64,000 bases of DNA from Halanaerobium saccharolyticum (lineage in GTDB: Bacteria > Bacillota > Halanaerobiia > Halanaerobiales > Halanaerobiaceae): the NCBI RefSeq assembly GCF_004362045.1, contig NZ_SNWX01000002.1:186001-250000 (forward strand), given 5' to 3'. Under the pieces are notes generated by a model. That model searched no databases. It saw only the letters and a program-made list of their open reading frames with translations, and was not told the origin of the DNA. Positions within the stretch are counted from its first letter, which is position 1. Each line of letters begins with the position of its first letter. The position numbers and the translations under genes are program-made. Positions 22,761-53,532 of this stretch are shown one piece after another.

Positions 22761-22821
22761 AATTGTATAAGCAATATATATATGTTGTAGAAATATATAA
22801 ATAGTAATTGAGGTGAAGCAG

Positions 22822-24069
22822 ATGAAATATGTAACAGGGCTGCACTGTATTAAGTGTGGTAAGGAATATGAAGCAGATCCTGAACGTTATCTCTGTGATG
22901 ACTGTGAGGATGGAATTTTGGATGTTGATTATGATTATCAAAAAATTAAGGCTGAGTGGTCAAAGGCGGATCTTAAGGCAAATTCCGACCGGCGAATCTG
23001 GCGTTTTGAACCACTGCTGCCAATCAATCCAGAAACAGAAAAACCAAAACTTGCTGTTGGCAATACTCCAATTTATAATTCACAGGTCCTTGCAGATGAG
23101 TTTGGGATTAAAGAATTGATCATAAAAGATGATGGTTTAAATCCGACTGCATCTTTAAAAGACCGGGCTTCAGCGATGGCTGTGGTTAAGGCTCAGGAAG
23201 CAGGTGCAACAACTGTTGCCTGTTCATCGACAGGTAATGCCGCTTCTTCTCTGGCCGGCAATATCGCCTCGATGGGAGGCCGAATGAATGCTGTGATTTT
23301 TGTGCCCGATCGGGCTCCAGCCGGTAAGCTGGCCCAGCTTTTAATTTACGGGGCTGATGTAGTTTCTGTTAAAGGATCATATGAAGAAGCATTTTATCTT
23401 TCAGCAGCTGCTATTGATAAATGGGGTTGGTATAACCGCAATGCTGCTATTAACTCCTATCTGGTTGAAGGGAAAAAAACAGTTTCTCTGGAGCTGGCAG
23501 AACAGCTGCAGTGGGAAATGCCGGATTGGGTTGTATTTTCTGTTGGTGATGGCTGTACTCTTGCCGGAGCCTATAAAGGTTTATTTGATCTCAAAGAAAT
23601 TGGCTTTATTGATAGAATACCAAAACTTCTGGGAGTTCAGGCTGCAGGCTGTGCCCCAATTACCGAGGCTTTTAGAAGCGGAAAAGATCTGGAAGTAACA
23701 GCTGAAAACACTATTGCCGACAGTATTGCTGTGGGGAAACCACGCAACTGGCTGAAGGCAGTAAGAGCAGTCAGAGATTCTGAGGGTGAGATGATTAATG
23801 TCAGTGATGAGCAGATTCTGGCGATGATGAGAACTCTGGGCAAAAAGACCGGCATTTTTGGTGAGCCGGCAGGTGTTGCCGGACTGGCTGGACTTAAAAA
23901 AGCAGCAGCCGCAGGAATTGTAAAGACAGATCAGACTGCAGCAGTTGTAATTACCGGGAATGGACTTAAAGATGTCAAAAATGCTCGCCGGGCTGCCGGA
24001 GATCCAATTGAAGTTGAGCCGGATCTTGAAAAACTAACCAGGGTTTTTGCCGAAAAGGGTGTGACTTAA
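22822..24069 (+). CDS. Threonine synthase-like PLP enzyme with zinc-ribbon N-terminus
   Basis: A 415-residue fold-type II enzyme. It begins with a zinc ribbon, CIKCGKEY and CDDCEDG (Cys 9, 12, 25, 28), as in archaeal/clostridial threonine synthases. The PLP lysine is K113 in NPTASLKDRASAMA, and the phosphate loop is CSSTGNAASSLAG. ATG 22822 is preferred over GTG 22813 since GAGGTG at 22810-22815 is then spaced properly. No homoserine kinase or dehydrogenase gene is near, and the neighbours are purine-degrading genes, so a role other than threonine synthesis, such as acting on diaminopropionate-type compounds, is likely but unproven. Its stop is 1 nt from the regulator gene. Confidence 0.82.
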   Translation: MKYVTGLHCIKCGKEYEADPERYLCDDCEDGILDVDYDYQKIKAEWSKADLKANSDRRIWRFEPLLPINPETEKPKLAVGNTPIYNSQVLADEFGIKELIIKDDGLNPTASLKDRASAMAVVKAQEAGATTVACSSTGNAASSLAGNIASMGGRMNAVIFVPDRAPAGKLAQLLIYGADVVSVKGSYEEAFYLSAAAIDKWGWYNRNAAINSYLVEGKKTVSLELAEQLQWEMPDWVVFSVGDGCTLAGAYKGLFDLKEIGFIDRIPKLLGVQAAGCAPITEAFRSGKDLEVTAENTIADSIAVGKPRNWLKAVRAVRDSEGEMINVSDEQILAMMRTLGKKTGIFGEPAGVAGLAGLKKAAAAGIVKTDQTAAVVITGNGLKDVKNARRAAGDPIEVEPDLEKLTRVFAEKGVT

Positions 24070-24734: not shown

Positions 24735-25976
24735 GTGATAGAATTTGACAAAATTGTTGAACAGGCTGAAAACTATAAATCTGAGATCAGTTCATTTTTG
24801 AGAGATATGATTCGAATTCCCAGTGAGAGCTGTGAGGAAGAGAAAGTTGTTTTAAGAATTAAAGAAGAGATGGAAAAGGTTGGTTTTGACAAAATCGAGA
24901 TTGATGAGATGGGTAATATTTTAGGATATATCGGCCACGGCAGTCATGTGATTGCTATGGATGCTCATATTGATACTGTTGGAGTTGGTGATCAATCTCT
25001 CTGGGATTATGATCCTTTTGAGGGTTATGAAGATGATGAGATAATTGTTGGTCGTGGAGCCAGCGATCAGGAAGGCGGCATGGCCTCAATGGTTTATGCC
25101 GGCAAAATTATTAAGGATTTAGGCTTAGAAGATGACTATACTCTGATTATTACCGGTACAGTTCAGGAAGAAGATTGTGATGGACTCTGCTGGCATTATA
25201 TGATTGAAGAAAATGATATTCGACCGGAATTTGTAGTAATTACTGAACCATCTTCCTGTAATATTTACCGCGGTCACCGGGGTAGAATGGAAATCAAGGT
25301 TAGTACTCATGGAGTCAGCTGTCATGGTTCTGCTCCCGAAAGAGGAGAAAATGCAATTTACAAGATGGCCCCGATTATCAATGAGCTCAAGGCTCTGCAT
25401 CCCAATTTAACTCCACATGAGTTTCTGGGTAAGGGCAGCCTGACGGTTTCTGAGGTTTTCTTCAGTTCACCTTCCCGCTGTGCAGTAGCTGATGGCTGCA
25501 GTATTTCTATTGACCGCCGCCTGACTGCAGGAGAAAGCTGGCAGTTTGCAGTCCAGCAGGTTAAAAATTTACCTGCAGTTAATGATGCAGAAGCAGAAGT
25601 TGAGATGTACCAGTATGAGAGACCATCTTATACCGATTTTCAATATCCAATCGAAGCCTATTTTCCAACCTGGTTGATCGAAGAGGAGCATCCGGTCTGC
25701 CAGACAACAGTGGAAGCCTATCAGGAATTATTTAAAGAAGAGCCGCTGGTTGATAAGTGGACCTTTTCGACCAATGGAGTTTCAATTATGGGACGCCACG
25801 GGATTCCCTGTATTGGTTTTGGACCGGGCCATGAAGATCAGGCTCATGCCCCAAATGAAAAAACATGGAAATCAGAACTTGTTAAAGCAGCTGCAATTTA
25901 TGCTGCAATTCCAAAATTATTTGTAGAAAAGTATGCTGATCAAATGCCCGAGAAAACAGAAAATTTATTAGCTTAA
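24735..25976 (+). CDS. ygeY: YgeY-family M20 peptidase/deacylase
   Basis: A 413-residue M20 zinc hydrolase (ArgE/DapE/carboxypeptidase type). Metal and catalytic residues are visible: DAHIDTVG (H78, D80), [10 protein letters not shown] (D111, bridging), TVQEEDCDG (E145 base, E146) and [15 protein letters not shown]. The match in length and the pairing with YgeW identify it as YgeY, which in E. coli and gut anaerobes belongs to the urate-degradation cluster and is proposed to remove a carbamoyl/acyl group from a diaminopropionate derivative. Start GTG 24735 has GGAGGTG in front. It precedes ygeW with a palindromic repeat in the gap. Confidence 0.85.
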
Positions 25977-26097: not shown

Positions 26098-27081
26098 ATG
26101 GAAACTCAATTAAAAGGAAGAGATTTTATAACACTACAGGAATGGACAAAAGATGAGATTGATACATTGCTGGATGTTTCATTTGATCTAAAAAGAAAAT
26201 TTGCGATGGGAGAGCCAACTCCATATTTGAGAGATAAAACAGCATTTTTAATGTTTTTTGAGCAGTCAACCAGAACCAGAAATTCAATGGAGGCTGGACT
26301 GGCTCAGTTAGGTGGTCATGCCAACTTTTTAGATACCAGCACCATGCAGGTTTCTCACGGTGAGGTAGCAAAAGATACAGGTGTTATTTTAGGAAGTTAT
26401 GGACATGCAATTGCCTGCCGTAACTGTGTCTGGGAAATTGGAAATAAGTATCTGCGTTCACTGGCCAATCATGCAAAAGTTCCGGTAATGAACTTACAGT
26501 GTGATCTTTACCATCCAATGCAGGGTATTGCAGATTTAATGACAATAAAAGAAAAGAAAAAGAGAACTGATAATCTTAAAGTATCAATTATCTGGGCTTA
26601 TGCAACAAGTCACAAAAAGCCAATTTCTGTCCCCTTAACTCAGGCACTACTTTTCCCCCGTTATGGTATGGATGTAACTCTGGCTTACCCAGAAGGATAT
26701 GAGATGCCGGAATGGGTAATTGAACAGGCCCGGGAAAACGCTGAGAAAAATAATGGAACTTTCAAAATTACTCATGATCAGGATGAAGCCTATCGTGAAG
26801 CTGATATCGTTATACCTAAAAACTGGGGCAGCTGGGTTACCAATCAGGATGATGCAGTAATTGATGATCTTTTAGAATCAAATAAACACTGGAAGTGCAC
26901 AGAAGAGAGAATGGCCATGGCCGATGCTGATGTAATGTACATGCATGCTCTGCCTGCTGACCGCGGGAATGAGGTAGAGGATTCTGTAATAGATGGAGAA
27001 CACTCAATAGTCTTTACAGAAGCAGAAAATAGATTACACACAGCTAAAGCTGTAATGACTTTAACAATGGGTGGTAAGTAA
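26098..27081 (+). CDS. ygeW: YgeW-type knotted carbamoyltransferase
   Basis: A 327-residue transcarbamylase. The carbamoyl phosphate loop FFEQSTRTRNSMEAG (STRTR, residues 57-61) and MHALPADRG (HALP) are present, and the region VSHGEVAKDTGVILGSYG matches the knotted YgeW/UTC group rather than ornithine or aspartate carbamoyltransferases. In bacterial urate-degradation clusters YgeW is thought to run phosphorolytically, moving the carbamoyl group of a ureido intermediate to phosphate and so allowing ATP formation by a carbamate kinase; no kinase gene is in the window. AAAGGAGG precedes the ATG. Flanked by palindromic repeats on both sides. Confidence 0.87.
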   Translation: METQLKGRDFITLQEWTKDEIDTLLDVSFDLKRKFAMGEPTPYLRDKTAFLMFFEQSTRTRNSMEAGLAQLGGHANFLDTSTMQVSHGEVAKDTGVILGSYGHAIACRNCVWEIGNKYLRSLANHAKVPVMNLQCDLYHPMQGIADLMTIKEKKKRTDNLKVSIIWAYATSHKKPISVPLTQALLFPRYGMDVTLAYPEGYEMPEWVIEQARENAEKNNGTFKITHDQDEAYREADIVIPKNWGSWVTNQDDAVIDDLLESNKHWKCTEERMAMADADVMYMHALPADRGNEVEDSVIDGEHSIVFTEAENRLHTAKAVMTLTMGGK

Positions 27082-32193: not shown

Positions 32194-34485
32194 ATGGCTT
32201 TTAAACATGTTAACAAAGGTGTCAGGAGAGTAGATGCCTATGAGAAAGTTACCGGTAAGGCCAAATTTGGAGCAGATCTGGAATTTGCAAATATGCTTCA
32301 TGCTAAAGTACTGAGGACAGAATATCCTCATGCTGAAATTGAAAAAATTGAGACAGCTGCGGCAGAAGGGATGCCGGGTGTAAGAGGTGTATTTACAGCT
32401 AAGGATATTCCAAATAATCTCTTTGGAGTTATTGTTCAGGATCAGCAGGTACTGGCAGATAAGAAAGTGCTGCTGGCTGGAGATGGAGTGGCCATGGCTG
32501 TGGCAGAAACTGAAGCTCAGGCAGCGGCAGCTCTGGAAAAGATTAAGGTTGAATACAGAGAGCTGGAAGGAGTTTTTGATCCACTGGAATCTCGAAAAGA
32601 AGGTGCCCTGAAATTGCATCCGGAAAAAGATGATAACCAGGTGATCCACCATCCGCTGCGTAAAGGGGATGTGAAAAAAGGTTTTGCAGAAGCAGATGTA
32701 ATTTTAGAAAGAGAATATACAACTCAGTTTATTGAACATAGTTATCTAGAGCCGGAAGCAGTTGTAGTGGTTCCCAATGAGGAAAACCATCTGGTTTCAG
32801 TTTATGGTTCAATTCAGAATCCCTATGCAACGAGAAATGCTGTTTCGGCGGTGCTGGAAGTTGAACTGGCTGAAGTAAGGGTTATTCAAAATCATATTGG
32901 TGGCTCTTTTGGCGGTAAAGATGAGGTTGTTTCGGCAATGGCTGCCCGGGCAGCAGTGATGGCGCTGAAAACCGGGAGACCGGTTAAGATGGTCAACAGC
33001 AGAGAGGAGTCGTTTACCGAAAGTTATAAGCGGCATCCCTATCATTTAACATATAAGATAGGAGCCACAAAAGAAGGTAAGCTGACGGCAATGGAAATTG
33101 CGGCAGTTGCAGATAGTGGTGGCTATGCCTGTCAGACTCCTTTTGTAACCTGGCGCAGTGTGGTTCAGGCCACAGGTCCCTATGAAGTAGAAAATGTTAA
33201 AACTGATACCTATGGTTATTATACCAATAATCCCTATACCGGGGCGATGCGCGGTTATGGTTCACCTCAGGTGATTTTTGCCCAGGAATCCTTAATGGAT
33301 GAACTGGCAGCTGAGCTTGGTTTAGAACCAGTTGAACTGCGAAAAAGAAATATGTATTCGCAGGGTTCGGTTACAGCCAGCGGTCAGAAGCTGGAGCGGC
33401 ACACTGTTTCCTTAAATGAAGTTATGTCTAAGGCGATGGAGGCCATAGATTATAAGAAGAAATATGAAGAATATTCCAGGGAACAGCCAGGAGATAAAAA
33501 GAAGGGAATTGGACTTTCCATTTCTTTTAGAGGCTGCAGCCTGGGAGCAGAGGCAATAGATGCAGCAGCTTCTGTAATTCAGATTAATAAAGATGGCAGT
33601 GTGGCAGTTTACAGTGGCCTGGCTGAAAATGGTCAGGGATTAAAAACAATCTTTTCCCAGATAGCAGCTGAAGTTTTAGGTGTCCCGATGAGCGAAGTTG
33701 AGTTTAAGGAACTGGACACCAGCTTTACCCCTGACAGCGGCTCAACAGTTGCCTCCCGGGCTACCTTAATCGGTGGTAATGCGATTAAGGATGCAGCGGA
33801 GAAATTGAAGGGTAGAATTATGGATTTTGCCGCAGGTAAATATGATTTTAAGATAGATCAGCTGGAACTAAAAGATGGCTTTTTATATGACGGTCAGGGT
33901 AACAGACTGGCAACCTTTGCTGATCTAACAGGAGAAATGGGCAATACCGGTATTTTAATGTCAGCTTACGGCTGGTATAAATCACCTCCAATCTCCTGGG
34001 ATGAAGAAAAAGGATCCGGCAACCCTTATTTTACCTATGTCTACGGCTGTCAGATAGCTGAAGTTGAAGTTGATACAGGAACCGGTGAGCTGAGCGTGCT
34101 CAATATGGCGGCTGCTCATGATGTCGGTCGGGCAATTAACCCGGAAAATGTTAAAGGTCAGATTTATGGTGGAGTCATGATGGGCTTAGGTTATGGAATT
34201 ATGGAAGAACTTGAAGTTAGAGATGGAGTAATTCAGGGAACTAACTTCCATGATTATATGATTCCCACCATTAAAGATATGCCGGATATTAAACCGGTAA
34301 TTGTAGAAAATCCTGATCCGGATGGCCCTTTTGGTGCTAAATCAATTGGGGAGCCAACTCTGGAATTAGGTAGTGCAGCAATAGCAAATGCAGTAGCTCA
34401 TGCTTCAGGCAGGAGAATTCGTTCTCTACCCCTTAACTTAGAGCGGGTTTTAATTGGTCGTGCTCTGCATAAGGGAGGTAAATAA
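32194..34485 (+). CDS. Molybdenum hydroxylase large subunit (xanthine dehydrogenase family)
   Basis: A 763-residue molybdopterin-binding subunit, single chain. Residues about 1-125 form the a/b hammerhead domain (VDAYEKVTGKAKFGADLEF); the Mo domains follow with HIGGSFGGKDEVVSAMAAR, TGAMRGYGSPQVIFAQE and the C-terminal FGAKSIGEPTLELG holding the catalytic Glu. It would hydroxylate a purine (hypoxanthine/xanthine) or, run reductively, act on urate. The next two genes encode the FAD and 2Fe-2S subunits, so the order is Mo-FAD-FeS. GGAGGTG precedes the ATG. Substrate within the family is not certain; the accessory genes for a selenium-dependent form (yqeB, yqeC) are not in the window. Confidence 0.87.
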   Translation: MAFKHVNKGVRRVDAYEKVTGKAKFGADLEFANMLHAKVLRTEYPHAEIEKIETAAAEGMPGVRGVFTAKDIPNNLFGVIVQDQQVLADKKVLLAGDGVAMAVAETEAQAAAALEKIKVEYRELEGVFDPLESRKEGALKLHPEKDDNQVIHHPLRKGDVKKGFAEADVILEREYTTQFIEHSYLEPEAVVVVPNEENHLVSVYGSIQNPYATRNAVSAVLEVELAEVRVIQNHIGGSFGGKDEVVSAMAARAAVMALKTGRPVKMVNSREESFTESYKRHPYHLTYKIGATKEGKLTAMEIAAVADSGGYACQTPFVTWRSVVQATGPYEVENVKTDTYGYYTNNPYTGAMRGYGSPQVIFAQESLMDELAAELGLEPVELRKRNMYSQGSVTASGQKLERHTVSLNEVMSKAMEAIDYKKKYEEYSREQPGDKKKGIGLSISFRGCSLGAEAIDAAASVIQINKDGSVAVYSGLAENGQGLKTIFSQIAAEVLGVPMSEVEFKELDTSFTPDSGSTVASRATLIGGNAIKDAAEKLKGRIMDFAAGKYDFKIDQLELKDGFLYDGQGNRLATFADLTGEMGNTGILMSAYGWYKSPPISWDEEKGSGNPYFTYVYGCQIAEVEVDTGTGELSVLNMAAAHDVGRAINPENVKGQIYGGVMMGLGYGIMEELEVRDGVIQGTNFHDYMIPTIKDMPDIKPVIVENPDPDGPFGAKSIGEPTLELGSAAIANAVAHASGRRIRSLPLNLERVLIGRALHKGGK

Positions 34486-34487
34486 TA

Positions 34488-35363
34488 ATGGTCGAATATC
34501 AATTATTGAGAGCTCATAGTTTAGAAGAAGTATTGGAAATTCTGGCTGAAAAAAAGAAGGTGCAGATTCTGGCAGGAGGAACTGATCTACTGGTTGACCT
34601 CCACCAGCAGGATCCAAAATTTGAAAATATAGATTATCTTTTAGATATTACCGATGTAGCTGAACTTAAGGGAATCAAACTGGGCCCAGAAGAGGGCGAG
34701 ATTGGTGCTCTGACAACTCATGCAGAATTGTTAAGCAGCCCGGAAATAAAAGAAAAGCTGCCCTTTATTGGAGCAGCAGCCAGCAGTATTGGCTCAACTC
34801 AAATTAGAAATCGGGCCACTATTGGTGGTAATCTGGTCAATGCAGCAGCCTGTGCTGATTCATTTTCACCTCTGATTGCTCTGGGAGCAGAACTTGTTCT
34901 GCGCAATAAAGGTGGAGCCCGCAGGGTTCTGCTGGAAGATTTTGTGGAATGGCCAAATCAGACGGTACTTAAAGATAATGAAGTTCTGGAAAAAATAGTT
35001 TTTAAAATGCCTCAGGGAGAATATTACAGCAGTTATCAGAAGATTGGGCGCCGCAATGCGGTAAGTATTTCCAGACTTTCTTTAACCCTGCTGGCTGAAG
35101 TAGAAAATGAAGCGATAAAAAATGTTCAGGTTGTTTCTGGAGCTGCAACTCCTGCGCCTGTACCTTTTAGAGAGGTAAATAAGTATTTAACGGCTAAAAC
35201 TTTTGCTGAGATAGATCCGGCAGAGGCCGGGGAGATAGCAGCAGATGAGATGGTAGGAATTACAGGGGAAAGATGGTCAACCCCCTATAAACGGCCTGCT
35301 CTGAGTAAACTGGTAGAAAGAGCAGTAAAAGATTTATTGGAGGAGGCAGGATATAATGGCTAA
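34488..35363 (+). CDS. Molybdenum hydroxylase FAD-binding subunit, first set
   Basis: A 291-residue FAD subunit (CoxM/XdhB type). The FAD motifs are ILAGGTDLLVDLHQ near residue 30 and IRNRATIGGNLVNAAACADS near residue 105; a CO_deh_flav_C domain follows (KIGRRNAVSISRLSLTLL, SGAATPAPVPFREV). It passes electrons from the 2Fe-2S clusters to NAD or another acceptor. It starts 2 nt after the large subunit and overlaps the next gene by 8 nt, so the three subunits are made together. Confidence 0.9.
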   Translation: MVEYQLLRAHSLEEVLEILAEKKKVQILAGGTDLLVDLHQQDPKFENIDYLLDITDVAELKGIKLGPEEGEIGALTTHAELLSSPEIKEKLPFIGAAASSIGSTQIRNRATIGGNLVNAAACADSFSPLIALGAELVLRNKGGARRVLLEDFVEWPNQTVLKDNEVLEKIVFKMPQGEYYSSYQKIGRRNAVSISRLSLTLLAEVENEAIKNVQVVSGAATPAPVPFREVNKYLTAKTFAEIDPAEAGEIAADEMVGITGERWSTPYKRPALSKLVERAVKDLLEEAGYNG

Positions 35364-35829
35364 GTTAGAGGTAGAAATCACAGTTAATGGAGAACAGCAT
35401 AAATTAAAAGTGGGCAGTCAGGAAAGACTTTTAGATACCCTCAGAGATGAGCTGAAGCTGACCGGAACCAAAGAAGGCTGCAGTGTTGGTGAATGTGGGG
35501 CCTGCACGGTAATTGTCGATGATCAGGCAGTTAATTCCTGTCTGGTGCTCACAGCTCAGGTAGATGGCAGTGAGATTATCACAGTTGAGGGTCTGGAAAG
35601 CAAAAGCGGTCTGCATCCACTGCAGAAAGCTTTTATCGAAAAACAGGCTGTCCAGTGTGGTTTCTGTACTCCAGGAATGCTGATGTCAGCTCTGGCACTT
35701 TTAAATACCAATCCGACTCCGACTAAGGAAGAGATCAAAACAGCTCTGGAAGGAAATTTATGCCGCTGCACAGGTTATCAGCAGATAATTGATGCAGTTG
35801 AGATGGCAGCCGAAGAATGGGGTGTCTGA
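35356..35829 (+). CDS. Molybdenum hydroxylase 2Fe-2S subunit, first set
   Basis: A 157-residue subunit with two [2Fe-2S] clusters. The plant-type ferredoxin domain has CSVGECGACTVIVDDQAVNS followed by C (four Cys), and the helical domain has VQCGFCTPGM and NLCRCTGYQ (four Cys). All eight ligands are present. Length is normal for CoxS/XdhC-type subunits. It overlaps the FAD-subunit gene and ends 1 nt before the next GTG. Confidence 0.92.
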   Translation: MAKLEVEITVNGEQHKLKVGSQERLLDTLRDELKLTGTKEGCSVGECGACTVIVDDQAVNSCLVLTAQVDGSEIITVEGLESKSGLHPLQKAFIEKQAVQCGFCTPGMLMSALALLNTNPTPTKEEIKTALEGNLCRCTGYQQIIDAVEMAAEEWGV

Positions 35830-37627: not shown

Positions 37628-38008
37628 ATGATACATGGAGGCAAGACTGCGCAGGAGTTTTTAGACAAGCTGGAAAACGATTGGAGAAAGGAAAAATTGT
37701 TAGAAGTACGACAATTGATTCTTAAGCATCCCCAACTCCAGGAAGGAATGAATTACGGAATGCTGGCGTATGGAGACGGAACAGAAGCAGAGCCCTTGTT
37801 TCATCTGAATGCCCAGAAGAATTATGTAAGCCTGTATGTCGGTGACATTCAAAAAATTGATCCGGATAGCAGTTTGTTGAAAGGACTGAACCTTGGTAAA
37901 GGATGCATCCGAATTTCAAAATCAAAGAAGATCCCAGAAACTGGCTTGACGGAATTTATCCAGAAAGCTGTTGATTTATGGCTTGCCGGGGAAGATACTT
38001 CTTGTTAA
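37628..38008 (+). CDS. DUF1801 / YdhG-like small protein
   Basis: A 126-residue protein of the DUF1801 (YdhG/YjbR-like, iron-chaperone-like) fold. Landmarks are QEGMNYGMLAYGDG, LFHLNAQKNYVSLYVGD and GCIRISKSKKIPETGL, as in the family, whose biochemical role is poorly known. GTAGGAGG precedes the ATG. It interrupts a run of purine enzymes and sits just after the long inverted repeat, and its base usage (several CG-containing codons) looks a little different, so it may have arrived with that element. Nothing links it to purine metabolism. Confidence 0.75.
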   Translation: MIHGGKTAQEFLDKLENDWRKEKLLEVRQLILKHPQLQEGMNYGMLAYGDGTEAEPLFHLNAQKNYVSLYVGDIQKIDPDSSLLKGLNLGKGCIRISKSKKIPETGLTEFIQKAVDLWLAGEDTSC

Positions 38009-38123
38009 ATTAATAGTCATAGTCTAGTCAATGCTGGTTATAGGCGGACAGATGGTCTTATTTATTTTATTAAATTTTATTCAAATTTTCGATCTGAAAA
38101 ATCAGAAAGAAAGGAGTGGTTTC

Positions 38124-39455
38124 TTGCTCTTATTAACCAACGGAACAGTAATTACTCATGACGAAGATAATCGAGTTATTAAAAATGGAGCAGTTTTAAT
38201 TGAGGGAGAAGAAATTAAGGCTTTAGGAGAATCTGAGCTTTTAAAATCAAAGTATCCGGAAGCAGAAGTTAAAGATGTTCAGGGCAAAATTATTATGCCG
38301 GGAATGATCAATACTCACATGCATATCTACAGCACCTTTGCCCGGGGCATGGATTTAAAAACTGAGCAGCCGCCCCGACATTTTTTAGAAATTCTGGAGA
38401 AAATGTGGTGGCGGGTAGACAGCACATTAAAAGCAGATGATATTTATTACAGTGCTCTTTATGCCTTTCTGACAGGACTAAAACAGGGTGTGACCTCTGT
38501 TTTTGACCACCATGCAAGCTACGGACAGGTAAGTTATTCGCTTGATCTGGTAGCTAAAGCAGTGGAGGAACTGGGTATTAGAGCTGATCTCTGTTATGAG
38601 ATTTCTGACCGCAATGGTCAGGAGCAGTCTCAGGCAGCGGTTAAAGAAACTGAGAAATTTTTAAAGAAGATTAGGGAGAAAAATTCAAATCATTTAAATG
38701 GTAGAATTGGATTACATGCTTCATTTACCTTAGAAGATGAGACTTTAGAGCAAGTTTCAGCCCTGGCCGATGAATTAGACAGCAGTTTCCATATTCATGT
38801 AGCTGAAGGACGAACTGATTTAGAAGACAGCCGGCTCCGCGGTTACAATGGAGCGGTTAAGCGTCTTGATCAGTACAATATCTGGCGGCCGGGAACTATT
38901 GCTGTTCACGGGGTCCATCTGCAGGAAGGTGAGCTGGAGATTTTAAGAGACAATGATTGTTATCTGATTAATAATCCGGAATCCAATATGGGAAATGCGG
39001 TAGGAGCAGCACCCTTAAAGCAAGCTCTGGACAAAGGTCTCAAAGTTGGACTGGGTACAGATGGTTATACAACTGATATGTTTGAGAGCATCAAGGTTGC
39101 TAATTTAATGCTCAAACATCAGAATCGAGATCCCCGTCTGGGCTGGACTGAAATTCCCCAGATGGTTTTTAAGACAAATGCAAAGCTGGCCAGTGAGAGC
39201 TTTGGCACTCAGCTTGGTGTTTTAAAAGAGGGGGCAGCTGCAGACATTATTGTAGTTGATTACAGCCCGCCAACGGAAATAAATAGTGATAATACTTATG
39301 CCCACATCTTATTTGGAATCAATGGCGGCATGGTTGAGACAACAATTGTTAATGGTAAAATATTAATGGAAAATCGGGAGGTGCAGGTAGTTGATGATCA
39401 GAAAATCACCCATGAAACAAGAGAACAGGCAGACGATTTCTGGAGCAGATTTTGA
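38124..39455 (+). CDS. ssnA: SsnA family aminohydrolase
   Basis: A 443-residue amidohydrolase, nearly the length of E. coli SsnA (442). It shares GMINTHMHIYSTFARGM (HxH metal site), the segment LEKMWWRVDSTLKADDIYYS, VTSVFDHHAS, FHIHVAEG, AVHGVHLQEGEL and GTDGYTTDMFE. SsnA is a standard member of bacterial urate/purine degradation clusters. Its exact reaction is not settled; hydrolysis or deamination of a purine-derived ring is assumed. The start is TTG 38124, with AAGGAG at 38111-38116 spaced 7 nt; the longer frame from 38031 has no ribosome site and adds hydrophobic residues absent from the family. Confidence 0.87.
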   Translation: MLLLTNGTVITHDEDNRVIKNGAVLIEGEEIKALGESELLKSKYPEAEVKDVQGKIIMPGMINTHMHIYSTFARGMDLKTEQPPRHFLEILEKMWWRVDSTLKADDIYYSALYAFLTGLKQGVTSVFDHHASYGQVSYSLDLVAKAVEELGIRADLCYEISDRNGQEQSQAAVKETEKFLKKIREKNSNHLNGRIGLHASFTLEDETLEQVSALADELDSSFHIHVAEGRTDLEDSRLRGYNGAVKRLDQYNIWRPGTIAVHGVHLQEGELEILRDNDCYLINNPESNMGNAVGAAPLKQALDKGLKVGLGTDGYTTDMFESIKVANLMLKHQNRDPRLGWTEIPQMVFKTNAKLASESFGTQLGVLKEGAAADIIVVDYSPPTEINSDNTYAHILFGINGGMVETTIVNGKILMENREVQVVDDQKITHETREQADDFWSRF

Positions 39456-40305
39456 GGAATATTTTCAGCCTCAGAATTTAGAGAAGGCTCTGGAAATTAA
39501 AGCAGAATATTCGGACCAGATTGAGGTGGCAGCAGGTACTACAGATTTGCTGGTAGCAAATTATGAGCAGCTGCATCAAATTAAAAATTGGCTGGATCTG
39601 GATAAAATAGATGAACTGCGCAAAATTGAAATTTTGGAGAATGAGCTGCATATAGGAGCAATGGTAACTCATCTGCAGCTGATGAAATCAGATTTGATTA
39701 AAGAAAAATTGGCGGTTCTGGCTGCAGCAGCTGAAGATGTTGGTTCACCACAAATTAGAAGCAGGGGTACAATTGGCGGCAATATCTGTACTTCTTCACC
39801 AGCAGGAGATCTCCTGGCTCCTCTTTTAAGCTATGAGGCCAGCTTTAAACTTCAGAAAGCAGGAGCAGAAAGAATTGTGAGAGCTGAAGACTTTTTTACC
39901 GGGCCAAAAAGAAATTTAATGGAAGCTGATGAACTTTTAACAGAAATCATTATTCCGCTGACGGAAAACGAACGCGAAGGTGCCTGGGTTAAAGTTGGAC
40001 GCCGCAAGGCTCTCGTTATTTCTACCCTGACTCTTTCGGTAGTGCTGGAATTTGAAGCTGATAAGATAATCGAAGCTGGAATAGCTCTGGGTTCTGTTGC
40101 CCCAACACCGATCAGGTTGTGGGAAGTTGGAGAGCTGATGCTCGGAAGCAGCTTAACAGAACTGGATTACAAACAGCTGGGCCAGGAAGTCAAAGCCCGG
40201 ATTAATCCCATTGATGATTTAAGAGGTACCAGAGAATACAGAGAAGATGTAGCAGCTGATGTAATGGTCAGAGCTTTAAATGAGATTGAAAGGAAAAGGG
40301 GGTGA
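39412..40305 (+). CDS. Molybdenum hydroxylase FAD-binding subunit, second set
   Basis: A subunit of about 297 residues. FAD motifs are EVAAGTTDLLVANYEQ and SPQIRSRGTIGGNICTSSPA; the C-terminal flavoprotein domain contains VKVGRRKALVISTLTLSV. The family core begins at FEEYFQPQNLEKAL, about 15 residues after ATG 39412. The gene overlaps the end of ssnA by 44 nt, so translation is coupled. Start is uncertain: ATG 39391 is also in frame and no clear ribosome site favours either. It heads the second hydroxylase set, order FAD-FeS-Mo(N)-Mo(C), different from the first set. Confidence 0.85.
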   Translation: MKQENRQTISGADFEEYFQPQNLEKALEIKAEYSDQIEVAAGTTDLLVANYEQLHQIKNWLDLDKIDELRKIEILENELHIGAMVTHLQLMKSDLIKEKLAVLAAAAEDVGSPQIRSRGTIGGNICTSSPAGDLLAPLLSYEASFKLQKAGAERIVRAEDFFTGPKRNLMEADELLTEIIIPLTENEREGAWVKVGRRKALVISTLTLSVVLEFEADKIIEAGIALGSVAPTPIRLWEVGELMLGSSLTELDYKQLGQEVKARINPIDDLRGTREYREDVAADVMVRALNEIERKRG

Positions 40306-40312
40306 GCAGCTG

Positions 40313-40798
40313 ATGCAGATTACATTTACAGTTAATGGAGAAGAAAGAGAATTGGAAGTTACTCCCTATACCAGGCTGCTCGATTTATTGAGAGAAGATC
40401 TCGGCTTAACAGGAGTTAAAGAAGGCTGTGGTAAAGGTGAGTGCGGAGCCTGTACAGTAATTATGAATGGAGAACTAACAGCTTCCTGTCTGGTTCCAGC
40501 TCCCCAGGCAGACCAGGCAGAGATTCTAACGGTAGAAGGATTGGGAACAAGGGATGATCTACATCCAATTCAGGAATCATTTGTGGAAGCAGGAGCAGTT
40601 CAATGCGGCTACTGTATTCCCGGTATGATATTAGCAGGAAAAAGATTGCTGGATGAGAATCCTCAGCCAACAGAAAAAGAAGTACGCTATGGATTATCCG
40701 GTAATATCTGCCGCTGTACCGGTTATGCGAAGATTATCGATGCTGTAATGATGGCAGCAGATAAACTTGCAGTCGAAGGAAGTGATAGTAATGACTGA
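40313..40798 (+). CDS. Molybdenum hydroxylase 2Fe-2S subunit, second set
   Basis: A 161-residue subunit with all eight cluster cysteines: CGKGECGACTVIMNGELTAS plus C, VQCGYCIPGM and NICRCTGYAK. ATG 40313 is chosen (MQITFTVNGEERELEV) since AAGGGGGTG lies upstream; a longer frame from 40280 overlaps the FAD gene. Overlaps the next gene by 8 nt. Confidence 0.9.
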   Translation: MQITFTVNGEERELEVTPYTRLLDLLREDLGLTGVKEGCGKGECGACTVIMNGELTASCLVPAPQADQAEILTVEGLGTRDDLHPIQESFVEAGAVQCGYCIPGMILAGKRLLDENPQPTEKEVRYGLSGNICRCTGYAKIIDAVMMAADKLAVEGSDSND

Positions 40799-42137
40799 TC
40801 AGAATAAAAGAATTAAGGATTATTTCTGTAAACATACAACCCGCTGTACAATTGAAGGAGTTAAAAAAAGCAAGCGTTTTGTGGGCCATGATGTATTGAA
40901 GGCAGATGCCTGGGACAAGGTGACTGGAGAAGCAGTTTATCCTGATGATATATTTTTCGATGATCTGCTTTACGTTAAAATTAAAAGAGCAGTCCATCCC
41001 CATGCTATTTTAAAAGATATAGATATTTCGCAGGCTAAAAAAGTAGAGGGTGTAGTTGATATTGTTATTGCCGAAGATATTCCGGATGTCAGACAGTTTG
41101 GTCTGATTATCAGAGATCAACCCGTTTTAATTGCGCCCGGAGAAAAGATGCGCTATATGGGAGATCCGCTGGCGATAGTTGTTGCTGAGACAAAGGAAGC
41201 AGCTAAAAAAGCAAGGGATCTAATTAAAGTAAAGGTGGAAGAATTAGAAGTTATCACCGACCCCTTCCGGGCGATGGAGGATGATGCTCCGGATATTCAT
41301 CCAGATGGAAATATTGTAATCACCCATCATTTAAATCGGGGTGATGTTGATGAGGCTTTTAAAAATTCAGCAATAGTTGAAGAAAATCGCTATCAAACTC
41401 AATTTATCGATCAGCTGCCGATGCAGAATGAAGCCGGAGTTGCTCTCTACGATGAGCGTCGGGGAGTAATTAATATCTGGGCTGCAACTCAGTGGCTGCA
41501 TGATACTCAGGCCGATGTTGCTCAGTCTTTAAGATTATCAAAAGATCAAATTAGAATTATTCAGCCTACAATTGGTGGCGCCTTTGGGAAAAAAGAGGAT
41601 GTTTCGGTTCATATTCATCTGGCTATTGCAGCAATGAGGACCGGGAGACCGGTTAAGCTCTGTTTTACCAGAGAAGAATCGATGATTACTCAATCCAAAC
41701 GGCATCCAATTACAATTATCAATAAAACTGGTGTGGACCGTGATGGCTATTTAACCGCCTGGGAAACCAAATTTATTGGAGACACCGGAGCCTATGCTTC
41801 CAGTGGACCGGCAGTTGTGCACAAGGGAATGTACCATGCAACAGGACCCTATAACTGTCCCAATTTACGTGGTGTCTCCCATGCAGTTTATACCAATAAT
41901 ACCTATGCTGGTGCGATGCGCGGTTTTGGTACTGCTCAGGGAGCTTTTGCCTATGAACAGCAGATGGATATTCTGGCAGAAAAGTTAAGTATAGATCCGG
42001 CAGAATTTAGACTCAAAAACATCTATCAAAAAGATTCGATTACTCCTAACGGTCAGCAGCTTACTCACAGTGTAAATGCAGAAGAAACAATCAAAAGAGT
42101 GATGGAGCTCAGTGACTGGAAAGGGGGCAGAAAATAA
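40791..42137 (+). CDS. Molybdenum hydroxylase large subunit, N-terminal half
   Basis: A 448-residue protein that corresponds to the hammerhead and first Mo-binding domain of the 763-residue paralogue at 32194. Visible motifs are FVGHDVLKADAWDKVTGEAV, PTIGGAFGKKEDVSVHIHLA, TNNTYAGAMRGFGTAQGAFA and NIYQKDSITPNGQQL. It then stops at a clean TAA (42135-42137), exactly where the domain boundary to MoCoBD_2 is expected. It lacks the catalytic GEPT segment, which lies in the next gene. An N-terminal extension of about 30 residues with three Cys/His (FCKHTTRCTIEG) precedes the family core and is not in the paralogue. Confidence 0.85.
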   Translation: MTDQNKRIKDYFCKHTTRCTIEGVKKSKRFVGHDVLKADAWDKVTGEAVYPDDIFFDDLLYVKIKRAVHPHAILKDIDISQAKKVEGVVDIVIAEDIPDVRQFGLIIRDQPVLIAPGEKMRYMGDPLAIVVAETKEAAKKARDLIKVKVEELEVITDPFRAMEDDAPDIHPDGNIVITHHLNRGDVDEAFKNSAIVEENRYQTQFIDQLPMQNEAGVALYDERRGVINIWAATQWLHDTQADVAQSLRLSKDQIRIIQPTIGGAFGKKEDVSVHIHLAIAAMRTGRPVKLCFTREESMITQSKRHPITIINKTGVDRDGYLTAWETKFIGDTGAYASSGPAVVHKGMYHATGPYNCPNLRGVSHAVYTNNTYAGAMRGFGTAQGAFAYEQQMDILAEKLSIDPAEFRLKNIYQKDSITPNGQQLTHSVNAEETIKRVMELSDWKGGRK

Positions 42138-43138
42138 TGAAAAAATTTGGACGCGGACTGGCAACAATTATGTTTGGATTTGGTTATGGTGAGGGTTTTC
42201 CTGACCATTCTATTGCCTCAATTGAAATTAAAGAAGATGAGCGGATAGTTATCAGAACAGCTGCAGCCGATGTTGGGCAGGGAGTTATTACAACTGTGAT
42301 TCAGATTGCAGCAGAGATTTTAAGAATAAATCCAAACTATTTTGAAGTGGTTCAGGGTGATACCCATAAAACTAAAAACTCAGGTTCAACCTCTGCTACC
42401 CGGCAGACCTATTTTACCGGTAATGCAGTTAAAAAAGCAGCCGAAGATCTGCTGGCTAATCTATACCACTACGGCAGTTTAGAATTTCGCAGCAACCATC
42501 CTGAAATTGCAATTGAGGATGGAAAAATCTATATGTATGATGACCCGGACGATTATATTAGCTACTGGGAAATGGCAGAAAGAGTTAGAGAAAGAGGTAA
42601 AAAATTAGAAGCAGAAGGAAGTTTCTTTCCTGTAACCTACAGTCCTGATCAAAATGGTCAGGCAGACAAAGTCTATGTAGCCTATACTTTCCTCTCTCAG
42701 GTGATTGATATTGAAATTGATACAGATACCGGAACAATTGATCTCCTGGATGTTTATACAGCTGTTGACCTTGGTAAAGCAATTAATCCCAAAAATGTTG
42801 AAGGCCAGATTGAAGGTGGAACTGTTCAGGGACTGGGAATGGGAATGATGGAAGACCAGGTGATTCGCAATGGTAAAACACTCAATGCAGGCATGACAGA
42901 TTATCTGGTGCCGACAAGTGTTGATATTCCCAAATTCAAGCACTATCTGGTTGAAGAAGAGGATTCTGAAGGACCGTTTGGAGCCAAAGGAGTTGGGGAA
43001 CCGACTTTAATTGCTGCTGCCCCGGCACTGGCCAATGCTGTTTATGATGCAATCGGAGTTAGATTTTTTGATTTACCGATTAGTCCCTCAAAGATCAAAA
43101 AGGCTTTAAAAGAGAAAGAAAAGGAAGAAAATAGTTAA
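42137..43138 (+). CDS. Molybdenum hydroxylase large subunit, C-terminal half
   Basis: A 333-residue protein that starts with ATG overlapping the previous stop by 1 nt and carries the second Mo-binding domain: IRTAAADVGQGVITTVIQIA, SGSTSATRQTYFTGNA, AINPKNVEGQIEGGTVQGLG and the catalytic FGAKGVGEPTLIAAA. It has its own ribosome site (AAGGGGG at 42121-42127, 9 nt spacing), so this is a true two-gene arrangement rather than a frameshift: the two halves are out of frame and meet at a domain boundary. Together they give 781 residues, near the 763 of the fused paralogue. Confidence 0.85.
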   Translation: MKKFGRGLATIMFGFGYGEGFPDHSIASIEIKEDERIVIRTAAADVGQGVITTVIQIAAEILRINPNYFEVVQGDTHKTKNSGSTSATRQTYFTGNAVKKAAEDLLANLYHYGSLEFRSNHPEIAIEDGKIYMYDDPDDYISYWEMAERVRERGKKLEAEGSFFPVTYSPDQNGQADKVYVAYTFLSQVIDIEIDTDTGTIDLLDVYTAVDLGKAINPKNVEGQIEGGTVQGLGMGMMEDQVIRNGKTLNAGMTDYLVPTSVDIPKFKHYLVEEEDSEGPFGAKGVGEPTLIAAAPALANAVYDAIGVRFFDLPISPSKIKKALKEKEKEENS

Positions 43139-43274
43139 AGCCAGAGATTTACCTGAGATCATCCCCGCTCATTGACATAAGCGAAACTTTCTCGGCTAAA
43201 TTCGGTAAGTTAACTGAAAGCAGATAAACCAGTCGAAATTAGAGCAATTAAATATAAATAGGAGAGTGAAGAAA

Positions 43275-44360
43275 ATGGCTGATTTAAGTGTTAAATTGTT
43301 TGACTTTACACTAAAAAATCCGGTAATGCCGGCTGCTGGACCACCAATTAAAGATGCAAAAATGGCAGCGAAAGCAAAAGCTGGCGGCACAGGAGCAATT
43401 GTAACCAAGACTATTTCTACTAAAGCAGCAGAGGTTCCCCGGCCCAATATGGCCCAGACCAGAGGTGGTTTTATGAACACAGAGCTCTGGTCAGAAATGG
43501 GACCTGATCACTGGTTAGAAAACGAATATCCAAAAATTAAAGATTTGGGGCTGCCGGTAATCGTTGGTCTGGGCTACAGTGCTGAGCAGATTAGTGAACT
43601 GGTCAAAAAAACTGAAGCCTATGCTGATGCTTTTGAGCTGTCAACCCATTATTTAGGCAGTGATACTTCTCCGGTCGTAGAAAGTATCAAAGCTGCAAAA
43701 AAAGCCACTGATAAACCGGTAATGGTTAAGCTCAGTCCGCAGATTGATATTCCCAAATTTGCCAGGGCTGCGGCAGAGGCTGGAGCAGATGGACTTGTTT
43801 TGATTAATTCATTTGGGCCAACCCTTGATTTTGATATAGACAGCGGCAGACCGCTGATGGGAAGTGCAGATGGTTATGGCTGGCTTTCCGGAGAAGCAAT
43901 TTTTCCGCTGGCCTTAAGGGCAGTTTTCCAGGCTGTTCAGACTGTGGATATTCCTGTTTTAGCTGTTGGCGGAATTTCTACCGGAGCTGATGCAGTTAAG
44001 ATGATCATGGCTGGAGCCCAGGCAGTACAGACCTGTACAGCCGCTATCCTGAAAGGTCCTCAGGTTTATGGTAAAATTGCAGAAGAAATTGATCAATATT
44101 TAGAAAAGCATGGTTATCAGAATCTGGATCAGATCAGAGGTCTGGCTCAGAAGGCAGCTCCGGAAGCAGCAAATTACGAAACAAGGGTGCCTAAAATCAA
44201 AAGAGATAACTGTACTGGCTGTAGACTCTGTATTATCAGCTGTGTTTATGATGCCAACTATTTAGATCAGGAAAATAGAATTGTGATCGATGCTGAAAAA
44301 TGTGCCGGCTGCGGCCTCTGTGTTACCCGCTGTAACTTTGAAGCTCTGGCACTGGCATAA
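43275..44360 (+). CDS. PreA-like dihydroorotate/dihydropyrimidine dehydrogenase with two 4Fe-4S clusters
   Basis: A 361-residue flavoprotein. Residues about 1-290 form the FMN-binding TIM barrel of class 1B dihydroorotate dehydrogenase and PreA (LKNPVMPAAGPPIKDAK, VMVKLSPQIDIPKFAR, LVLINSFGPTLDF, VLAVGGISTGADAVKMIMAGA). The last 60 residues are a two-cluster ferredoxin: CTGCRLCIISC and CAGCGLCVTRC. E. coli PreA acts with PreT to reduce uracil; no PreT is seen here, so another electron partner is needed. In this island it may reduce a purine or hydantoin ring. ATG 43275 is chosen over GTG 43266, as TAGGAGAG at 43259-43266 fits it. Confidence 0.85.
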   Translation: MADLSVKLFDFTLKNPVMPAAGPPIKDAKMAAKAKAGGTGAIVTKTISTKAAEVPRPNMAQTRGGFMNTELWSEMGPDHWLENEYPKIKDLGLPVIVGLGYSAEQISELVKKTEAYADAFELSTHYLGSDTSPVVESIKAAKKATDKPVMVKLSPQIDIPKFARAAAEAGADGLVLINSFGPTLDFDIDSGRPLMGSADGYGWLSGEAIFPLALRAVFQAVQTVDIPVLAVGGISTGADAVKMIMAGAQAVQTCTAAILKGPQVYGKIAEEIDQYLEKHGYQNLDQIRGLAQKAAPEAANYETRVPKIKRDNCTGCRLCIISCVYDANYLDQENRIVIDAEKCAGCGLCVTRCNFEALALA

Positions 44361-52281: not shown

Positions 52282-53532
52282 ATGAAATTAAAATATGGAA
52301 GAGAAAATTTAGAATTTGAGATTGAGAGTAGTAGAGTATTAGATGTTTTAAAGGCAAATGAAAAAGAAGGGGTAAAAGATCCTCTTGCAGAAGTGGAAAG
52401 TTCCTTAGAGGTTCCGATTGGTACAGCTTCACTGGCAGAGCTTTTAGCTGCCAGTGAAATAAATGAGCTGGTAATTATAGTTAATGATGTAACCCGCTAT
52501 ACCCCCTATGATTATCTGCTGCCACCACTGCTAAAAACTATTTCTGAGGCCGGGATTAAAAATGAGCAGGTAACATTCATTGTTGCGACCGGGGTCCACA
52601 GTCCCCATTCTGATGAGCAGAACAGAGAAATTTTTGGGGAAGAGATAGATGACAATTATAATTTTATTCATCATGACTGTGATCAGGATCTGGCTGACTT
52701 AGGTCAACTGAGTACCGGCAATCAGCTTCAGATCAATAAAAAGGTTGTAGATGCAGATTTTTTAATTACTACCGGGGTTATTTTACCCCATTATATGGCC
52801 GGGTTTTCTGGAGGGAGAAAATCTATACTGCCGGGAGTTGCAGGCAGAGAAAGTATTGAAAACAATCATGCAATGATGGTTGAGGTGACAGAAGAAAAAC
52901 CTGCTTTAAAGAATAATCCAATCAGTCAGGAAATGTTTGAGGCGGCAGAAAAAGTAGGAGTAGATTTTATTCTCAATGTGGTTACCAACAGCAGGCGGGA
53001 AATAGTGCAGGTGGTTGGCGGTGATTATCGTCAGGCCTGGGAAGCAGGAATCGCTAAATCAGCAGAGATGTATCATCTATCTCTAGCGGAAAAAGCTGAA
53101 GCTGCAATTGTTAGTTCAGGAGGATTCCCCCGGGATATCAACCTTTATCAGGCACAGAAAGCTTTAGATCATGCAGATCATGCTGTCCAGAAAGGTGGAA
53201 CAATTATCTGGGTTGCAGAATGTTTGGAAGGCTACGGAGAAGAGCGGTTTCAAAAATGGATGGATCAGGCTCAAAAGCCGGAAGACAATATTGACAGGAT
53301 TAAAAAGAAGTTTTTAATCGGCGGCCATAAAGCATTTGCTATTTCTAAAGTAGCAGCCGAAAAAGAGATAATCTTAATTTCAAGTTTAAATCAGGAACAG
53401 ACAGAGAATATATTTGCTAAAAAAATGGAGACTATTCAGGAGGCAGTTGATTATCTGGAAGCTAAACATCAGGCAGATTATTCAGCTTACATTATGCCCC
53501 AGGGTAGTTTAACAGTACCGGTTGTAAAATAA
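52282..53532 (+). CDS. LarA-family (lactate racemase-like) nickel-pincer protein
   Basis: A 416-residue LarA-like protein. The N-terminal DUF2088 domain contains IVATGVHSPHSDEQNREIFG with catalytic-type histidines, FIHHDC, and VILPHYMAGFSGGRKSILPG, where the Lys matches the residue that holds the nickel pincer nucleotide cofactor in lactate racemase. The C-terminal half has AIVSSGGFPRDINLYQAQKA. Family members racemise or epimerise 2-hydroxy acids. No larB/C/E cofactor genes lie in the window. Substrate is unknown; pairing with the adenosylhomocysteinase-like gene is unusual. Begins 24 nt after a palindrome and ends 4 nt before another. Confidence 0.83.
   Translation: MKLKYGRENLEFEIESSRVLDVLKANEKEGVKDPLAEVESSLEVPIGTASLAELLAASEINELVIIVNDVTRYTPYDYLLPPLLKTISEAGIKNEQVTFIVATGVHSPHSDEQNREIFGEEIDDNYNFIHHDCDQDLADLGQLSTGNQLQINKKVVDADFLITTGVILPHYMAGFSGGRKSILPGVAGRESIENNHAMMVEVTEEKPALKNNPISQEMFEAAEKVGVDFILNVVTNSRREIVQVVGGDYRQAWEAGIAKSAEMYHLSLAEKAEAAIVSSGGFPRDINLYQAQKALDHADHAVQKGGTIIWVAECLEGYGEERFQKWMDQAQKPEDNIDRIKKKFLIGGHKAFAISKVAAEKEIILISSLNQEQTENIFAKKMETIQEAVDYLEAKHQADYSAYIMPQGSLTVPVVK

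Follow-up and report, generated by a model that had tools for sequence, protein, structure and literature searches.

Within the 64,000-nucleotide stretch of the Halanaerobium saccharolyticum genome that we analysed (hereafter the window; the genome containing it is 3.36 Mb), two adjacent open reading frames, MoN and MoC, very probably encode the two halves of one xanthine oxidase family molybdopterin subunit as separately translated chains (Table 1). A domain search placed PF01315 and PF02738 on MoN and PF20256 on MoC, all well above cut-off, and the cut falls between PF02738 and PF20256, in agreement with the first-pass annotation, which had proposed a large subunit divided into two genes at a domain boundary. 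That annotation had also described frames that differ and overlap by a single nucleotide, and a strong ribosome site belonging to MoC; we find both, the overlap as TAATG and the ribosome site as a GGGGG/GGAGG-type sequence at about 42120–42128, ahead of the MoC ATG. MoN has 448 residues when read from the ATG at 40791, or 456 from an alternative TTG at 40767. The catalytic glutamate (GVGEP), correctly assigned beforehand to the second polypeptide, is E288 of MoC and is invariant in our alignment. Together with partner FAD and 2Fe-2S genes, the two products hold all three domains and the GxGEP glutamate of the xanthine oxidase family, and, as in two-chain genes of the NdhL/NdhM type, the halves on either side of the MoCoBD_1/MoCoBD_2 cut each have their own start and ribosome site. 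This layout matters for annotation: NCBIfam equivalog cut-offs, which expect a fused subunit of ~750 aa, put MoN and MoC below threshold.

Table 1. Features of the split-subunit locus and its surroundings (window coordinates).
Feature	Position	Strand	Support or remark
YgeY hydrolase	24735..25976	+	TIGR03526 713 bits (cut-off 321.5)
Carbamoyltransferase, possible YgeW role	26098..27081	+	OTC/YgeW-type matches below equivalog cut-offs
Fused paralogue, xanthine dehydrogenase-type, 763 aa	32194..34485	+	Own FAD and Fe-S genes downstream, to 35829
SsnA aminohydrolase, reductive uric acid pathway marker	38031..39455	+	PRK07203 589 bits (cut-off 444); TIGR03314 548 bits (cut-off 455.5)
FAD subunit of same enzyme	39403..40305	+	XdhB-like NCBIfam matches; conserved neighbour
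2Fe-2S subunit of same enzyme	40313..40798	+	XdhC/PucE-like NCBIfam matches; conserved neighbour
MoN, N-terminal molybdopterin chain, NdhL-like, 448 aa	40791..42137	+	PF01315 (a/b hammerhead), PF02738 (MoCoBD_1)
MoN tail, residues 1-26, KDYxCKHTTRC motif	40791..40868	+	Predicted disordered, pLDDT about 40
Shine-Dalgarno-like site AAAGGGGGC of MoC, within MoN 3' end	42120..42128	+	Kept in 41 split loci
TAATG stop/start overlap of MoN and MoC, 1 nt	42135..42139	+	
MoC, C-terminal molybdopterin chain, NdhM-like, 333 aa	42137..43138	+	PF20256 (MoCoBD_2)
UacX-like dihydroorotate-dehydrogenase-type reductase, C-terminal ferredoxin-like region	43266..44360	+	PyrD/PreA-like; ferredoxin-type at residues 299-362; conserved neighbour

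Most relatives keep the order ssnA, FAD, Fe-S, MoN, MoC, uacX-like, adenine deaminase and permease. All 18 untruncated neighbourhoods contain ssnA, and 16 of them a UacX homologue of at least 60% identity. The purine genes of the cluster comprise an adenine deaminase, an 8-oxoguanine deaminase and purine permeases. An ORF of 126 aa (37628–38008) sits between the 8-oxoguanine deaminase gene and ssnA and has no NCBIfam match. The fused paralogue reported in the first pass is present as well and is distant; it belongs to a three-subunit xanthine dehydrogenase of the XdhABC / PucCDE type (32194–35829) that shares superfamily and domain order with the split enzyme but differs in its fused molybdenum (Mo) subunit, which has about 35% identity to the split one across the C half and is far removed in the tree.

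MoN begins with a Cys- and His-containing tail (CKHTTRC) which had been noticed at the outset as lacking in the paralogue, and which proves to be real. The motif KDYxCKHTTRC is near-invariant, with drifting flanks, in 10 genomes from three genera of the window's family; G012 has the variant KDYHCKHSTRC. Neither other families nor the fused paralogue have this motif, whose CKHTTRC part spans MoN residues 13–19. Our guess is that the CKHTTRC tail has a metal-binding or docking role.

Conservation of the split among relatives

Our search for the MoC half covered the genome of the window together with 60 relatives. The 26 best-matching genomes (the window's own included) have an open frame of about 330–360 residues for this half at 59–100% identity, and the second half is likewise separate in G039 and G042, at 51% identity. 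The split, found in at least 26 related genomes, is common to congeners (95–100% identity) and to most families of the class, and the ribosome site is kept with it, while overlap and relative frame vary; a search for the same arrangement in related genomes, which the first-pass annotation had advised, thus turned up both the split and its ribosome site. Across 41 split loci, predicted anti-Shine-Dalgarno pairing at the second start averaged -10.5 kcal/mol; the mean of 5752 background ATGs was -2.4, and just 0.8% of these pair as strongly as the split-locus median. The distance between the two genes in these loci ranges from -8 to +16 nt (overlap or gap), the relative frame is of one kind in 29, of another in 11 and in frame in 1, and the second start codon is GTG in two loci and TTG in one.

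That the split recurs in relatives marks it as a genuine gene arrangement rather than a sequencing error. Some relatives (G029, G050, G057 and one family of the class) do carry a fused orthologue at this place in the cluster, as would be expected if the split came from faulty sequencing or assembly, or from a recent inactivating frameshift, in a normally fused gene. However, split and conserved ribosome site are shared by congeners at 95–100% identity and by many genera, both halves are full-length with all active-site motifs, and overlap and frame vary between lineages, leaving such an explanation a vanishing probability; an indel or pseudogene at MoN/MoC is ruled out by the conservation. A fused gene in relatives combined with an indel near 42130 had been put forward as the sign of an artefact. 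This pattern fails for close relatives, and what stands of it is a fused gene in several syntenic relatives farther away, namely G029, G050, G057, G040, G043, G047, G049 and G051. Their fused state shows the split to be a gene layout in evolution and not an essential feature.

The two frames might also be joined during translation, through a programmed -1 frameshift on the run of Gs that precedes the stop codon, and in the window the MoC frame is indeed open for 7 codons 5' of its ATG, across the G5 run. Yet the relative frame is not conserved among the split loci, and the G run is missing from some of them, whereas the strong start site is present in every one, so that we consider frameshifting extremely improbable and reject it on the varying frame. 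More generally, since neither overlap or gap nor relative frame is fixed, the split is explained neither by an indel nor by a conserved frameshift signal. MoC would be translated from its own ribosome site, probably coupled to termination on MoN, and such coupling would yield comparable amounts of the two chains.

Relation to nicotinate dehydrogenase and to fused subunits

A PDB sequence search returned the two Mo chains of Eubacterium barkeri nicotinate dehydrogenase (NDH; NdhL/NdhM/NdhF/NdhS, 3HRD) as the best solved-structure matches: the large subunit, 3HRD_A, for MoN (E 2.1e-96) and the medium subunit, 3HRD_B, for MoC (E 3.3e-63), with the alignment of MoC and NdhM beginning at the first residue of each. 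Foldseek likewise put 3HRD_A at the top (TM 0.85) for the fold predicted for MoN (pLDDT 84); an AlphaFold model of MoC alone was not taken as evidence, its pLDDT being about 30 over residues 209–292, in the active-site half, with a shallow alignment. Both enzymes are cut at the same linker (425 + 330 aa in NDH, 448 + 333 aa here), both have separate FAD and Fe-S subunits, and in both the second chain starts MKKxGxG. The second-best PDB sequence match for each half, the alpha subunit of 4-hydroxybenzoyl-CoA reductase (1RM6), differs in being fused and in its substrate.

NDH consists of four gene products of 50, 37, 33 and 23 kDa (review, PMC10331938), and the residues of its catalytic pocket, as given in a structure paper, come from NdhL as well as NdhM (PMC8305194). 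A two-chain Mo subunit is therefore an architecture already established by crystal structure 3HRD and is not new. By analogy, MoN and MoC would together replace one fused molybdopterin subunit in the NdhL/NdhM manner and would join the Fe-S (40313) and FAD (39403) subunits in an enzyme of four polypeptides. We infer that MoN and MoC assemble into one active site, in which the molybdenum would lie between the chains and MoC would supply the catalytic Glu288.

The same four-subunit layout, the shared cut point and the best PDB match also raise the question whether the enzyme is a true selenium-containing NDH like that of E. barkeri, which we judge very improbable. The Halanaerobial proteins come out as a single, fully supported clade in maximum-likelihood trees. 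NDH is placed elsewhere, among sequences from Oscillospiraceae, Tissierellia and Desulfovibrio, and is closer to fused proteins, most of them from Thermodesulfobacteriota. A tree constrained to unite the two split groups is worse by 49 log units (AU p 0.0008; 31 rows, LG+G4), which places MoN and MoC outside the NDH clade. The pocket differs too. The position after GGxFGxK is Glu in 28 of 28 Halanaerobial rows and Leu in 6 of 6 NDH-clade rows, and the column of NdhM Tyr13 is Phe in the former (28 of 28) and Tyr in the latter (6 of 6). The enzyme of the window has the additional CKHTTRC N-terminal tail and lies in a purine gene context, and yqeB, a selenium-cofactor marker, is absent in 12 of 12 Halanaerobium genomes. 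No selD above cut-off was found in G006 and G010, both 99% complete and both with the split enzyme; selD, an indirect marker for labile selenium, is present in the window's genome. Tree and residues lead us to reject NDH membership, and selenium dependence finds no support within Halanaerobium.

As a separate observation, two selD matches (G000:C3:37869-38795 and G000:C10:88389-89315), each with an in-frame TGA that is probably a selenocysteine codon, occur in a genome without yqeB.

The Mo subunit of the Halanaerobial purine clade has switched between split and fused forms, and its otherwise conserved gene clusters allow the two states to be compared. The trees as a whole require 5–7 state changes, of which 5–6 are forced by well-supported branches, and thus at least five splits or fusions at one linker. 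Splits at the same linker occur elsewhere in Proteobacteria (Rhodospirillales, Burkholderiales, Xanthobacteraceae), in Clostridium rhizosphaerae and in others; L090 (Pelagibius), seemingly split but with an anomalous junction, was excluded from later trees. The simplest reading is that the linker between MoCoBD_1 and MoCoBD_2 tolerates a cut. In these unrooted trees splits and fusions look alike, and an ancestral split followed by several fusions could also be the history, although the AU test speaks against a single split origin common to the Halanaerobial group and NDH, since it does not accept them as a joint clade. The two-chain Mo subunit of NDH is hence not peculiar to one enzyme, its linker having been repeatedly cut or fused across Firmicutes and Proteobacteria.

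The split molybdenum hydroxylases L083, L088, L089, L107 and L123 form a proteobacterial clade of their own, with an Asn/Tyr pocket signature and ATGA overlaps.

Possible substrate and pathway

The reductive uric acid pathway, in which UacX and SsnA also have roles, relies on a molybdenum enzyme for the reduction of uric acid to 2,8-dioxopurine; this enzyme is XdhD in E. coli and XdhAC in C. sporogenes (PMC12507026, PMC12990295). The neighbourhood of the split genes has the combination typical of this pathway, ssnA and a dearomatising reductase gene (ygfK or uacX), and the fixed place of the enzyme between ssnA and the uacX-like gene points to the XdhD role. On this gene context, we put the chances at about even that the split enzyme catalyses the first pathway step, the reductive dehydroxylation of uric acid to 2,8-dioxopurine, which would make it a candidate first enzyme of uric acid breakdown in halophilic anaerobes.

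With the E. coli XdhD-YgfM uric acid reductase (XdhAC in C. sporogenes), the split enzyme shares as neighbours SsnA, a dearomatising reductase, YgeY and purine permeases. The proteins themselves differ: XdhD is one polypeptide that includes its Fe-S domain, whereas here the Mo subunit is two chains beside a separate Fe-S subunit, and XdhD stands on a long branch in the tree. Nor is its E606 common to the split enzyme, which has no counterpart of this residue in our alignment, the column falling in an insertion or gap; the importance of E606 is a model-based proposal, and the XdhD proteins of E. coli and C. difficile share only 26% identity (PMC12507026).

A two-chain hypoxanthine, xanthine or purine hydroxylase working in the oxidative direction, with the fused paralogue then performing another purine step, is a possible though somewhat doubtful alternative. 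The pocket residues are equally compatible with hypoxanthine or xanthine hydroxylation. The Glu after GGxFGxK falls at what we take to be the position of the purine-binding Glu802 of bovine xanthine oxidase. The cluster's adenine deaminase, 8-oxoguanine deaminase and purine permeases would suit such an enzyme, and in Clostridium purinolyticum a purine hydroxylase exists alongside a xanthine dehydrogenase. Against it, ssnA and a uacX homologue are constantly alongside, and the obvious candidate for a xanthine dehydrogenase is the fused paralogue, which adjoins the 8-oxoguanine deaminase. With the XdhD role as our working assignment, we tentatively picture a uric acid reductase with a two-chain Mo subunit, of a lineage apart from NDH and apparently without yqeB, whose linker has been repeatedly cut or rejoined and whose CKHTTRC tail may bind metal or dock partners.

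YgeY in the window and a D-hydantoinase about 60 kb upstream of the window (407 bits, cut-off 393) speak for the uric acid pathway. On the other side, the classical diaminopropionate ammonia-lyase YgeX (TIGR01747) has no match above cut-off in the window's genome, the hydantoinase is not a clear HyuA equivalog, and the carbamoyltransferase at 26098–27081 is not a clear YgeW equivalog. This divergent carbamoyltransferase adjoins ygeY and may perform the YgeW step. Near ygeY and the carbamoyltransferase gene we also find a threonine synthase-like PLP enzyme, in two distant families (22813–24069 in the window, and L142:7228-8487), and it lies near ygeY in G039; it is a candidate stand-in for the missing diaminopropionate ammonia-lyase. 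Elsewhere in the window, 52282–53532 encodes a nickel-dependent malate racemase of the LarAH6 family (NF052593, 583 bits; cut-off 500).
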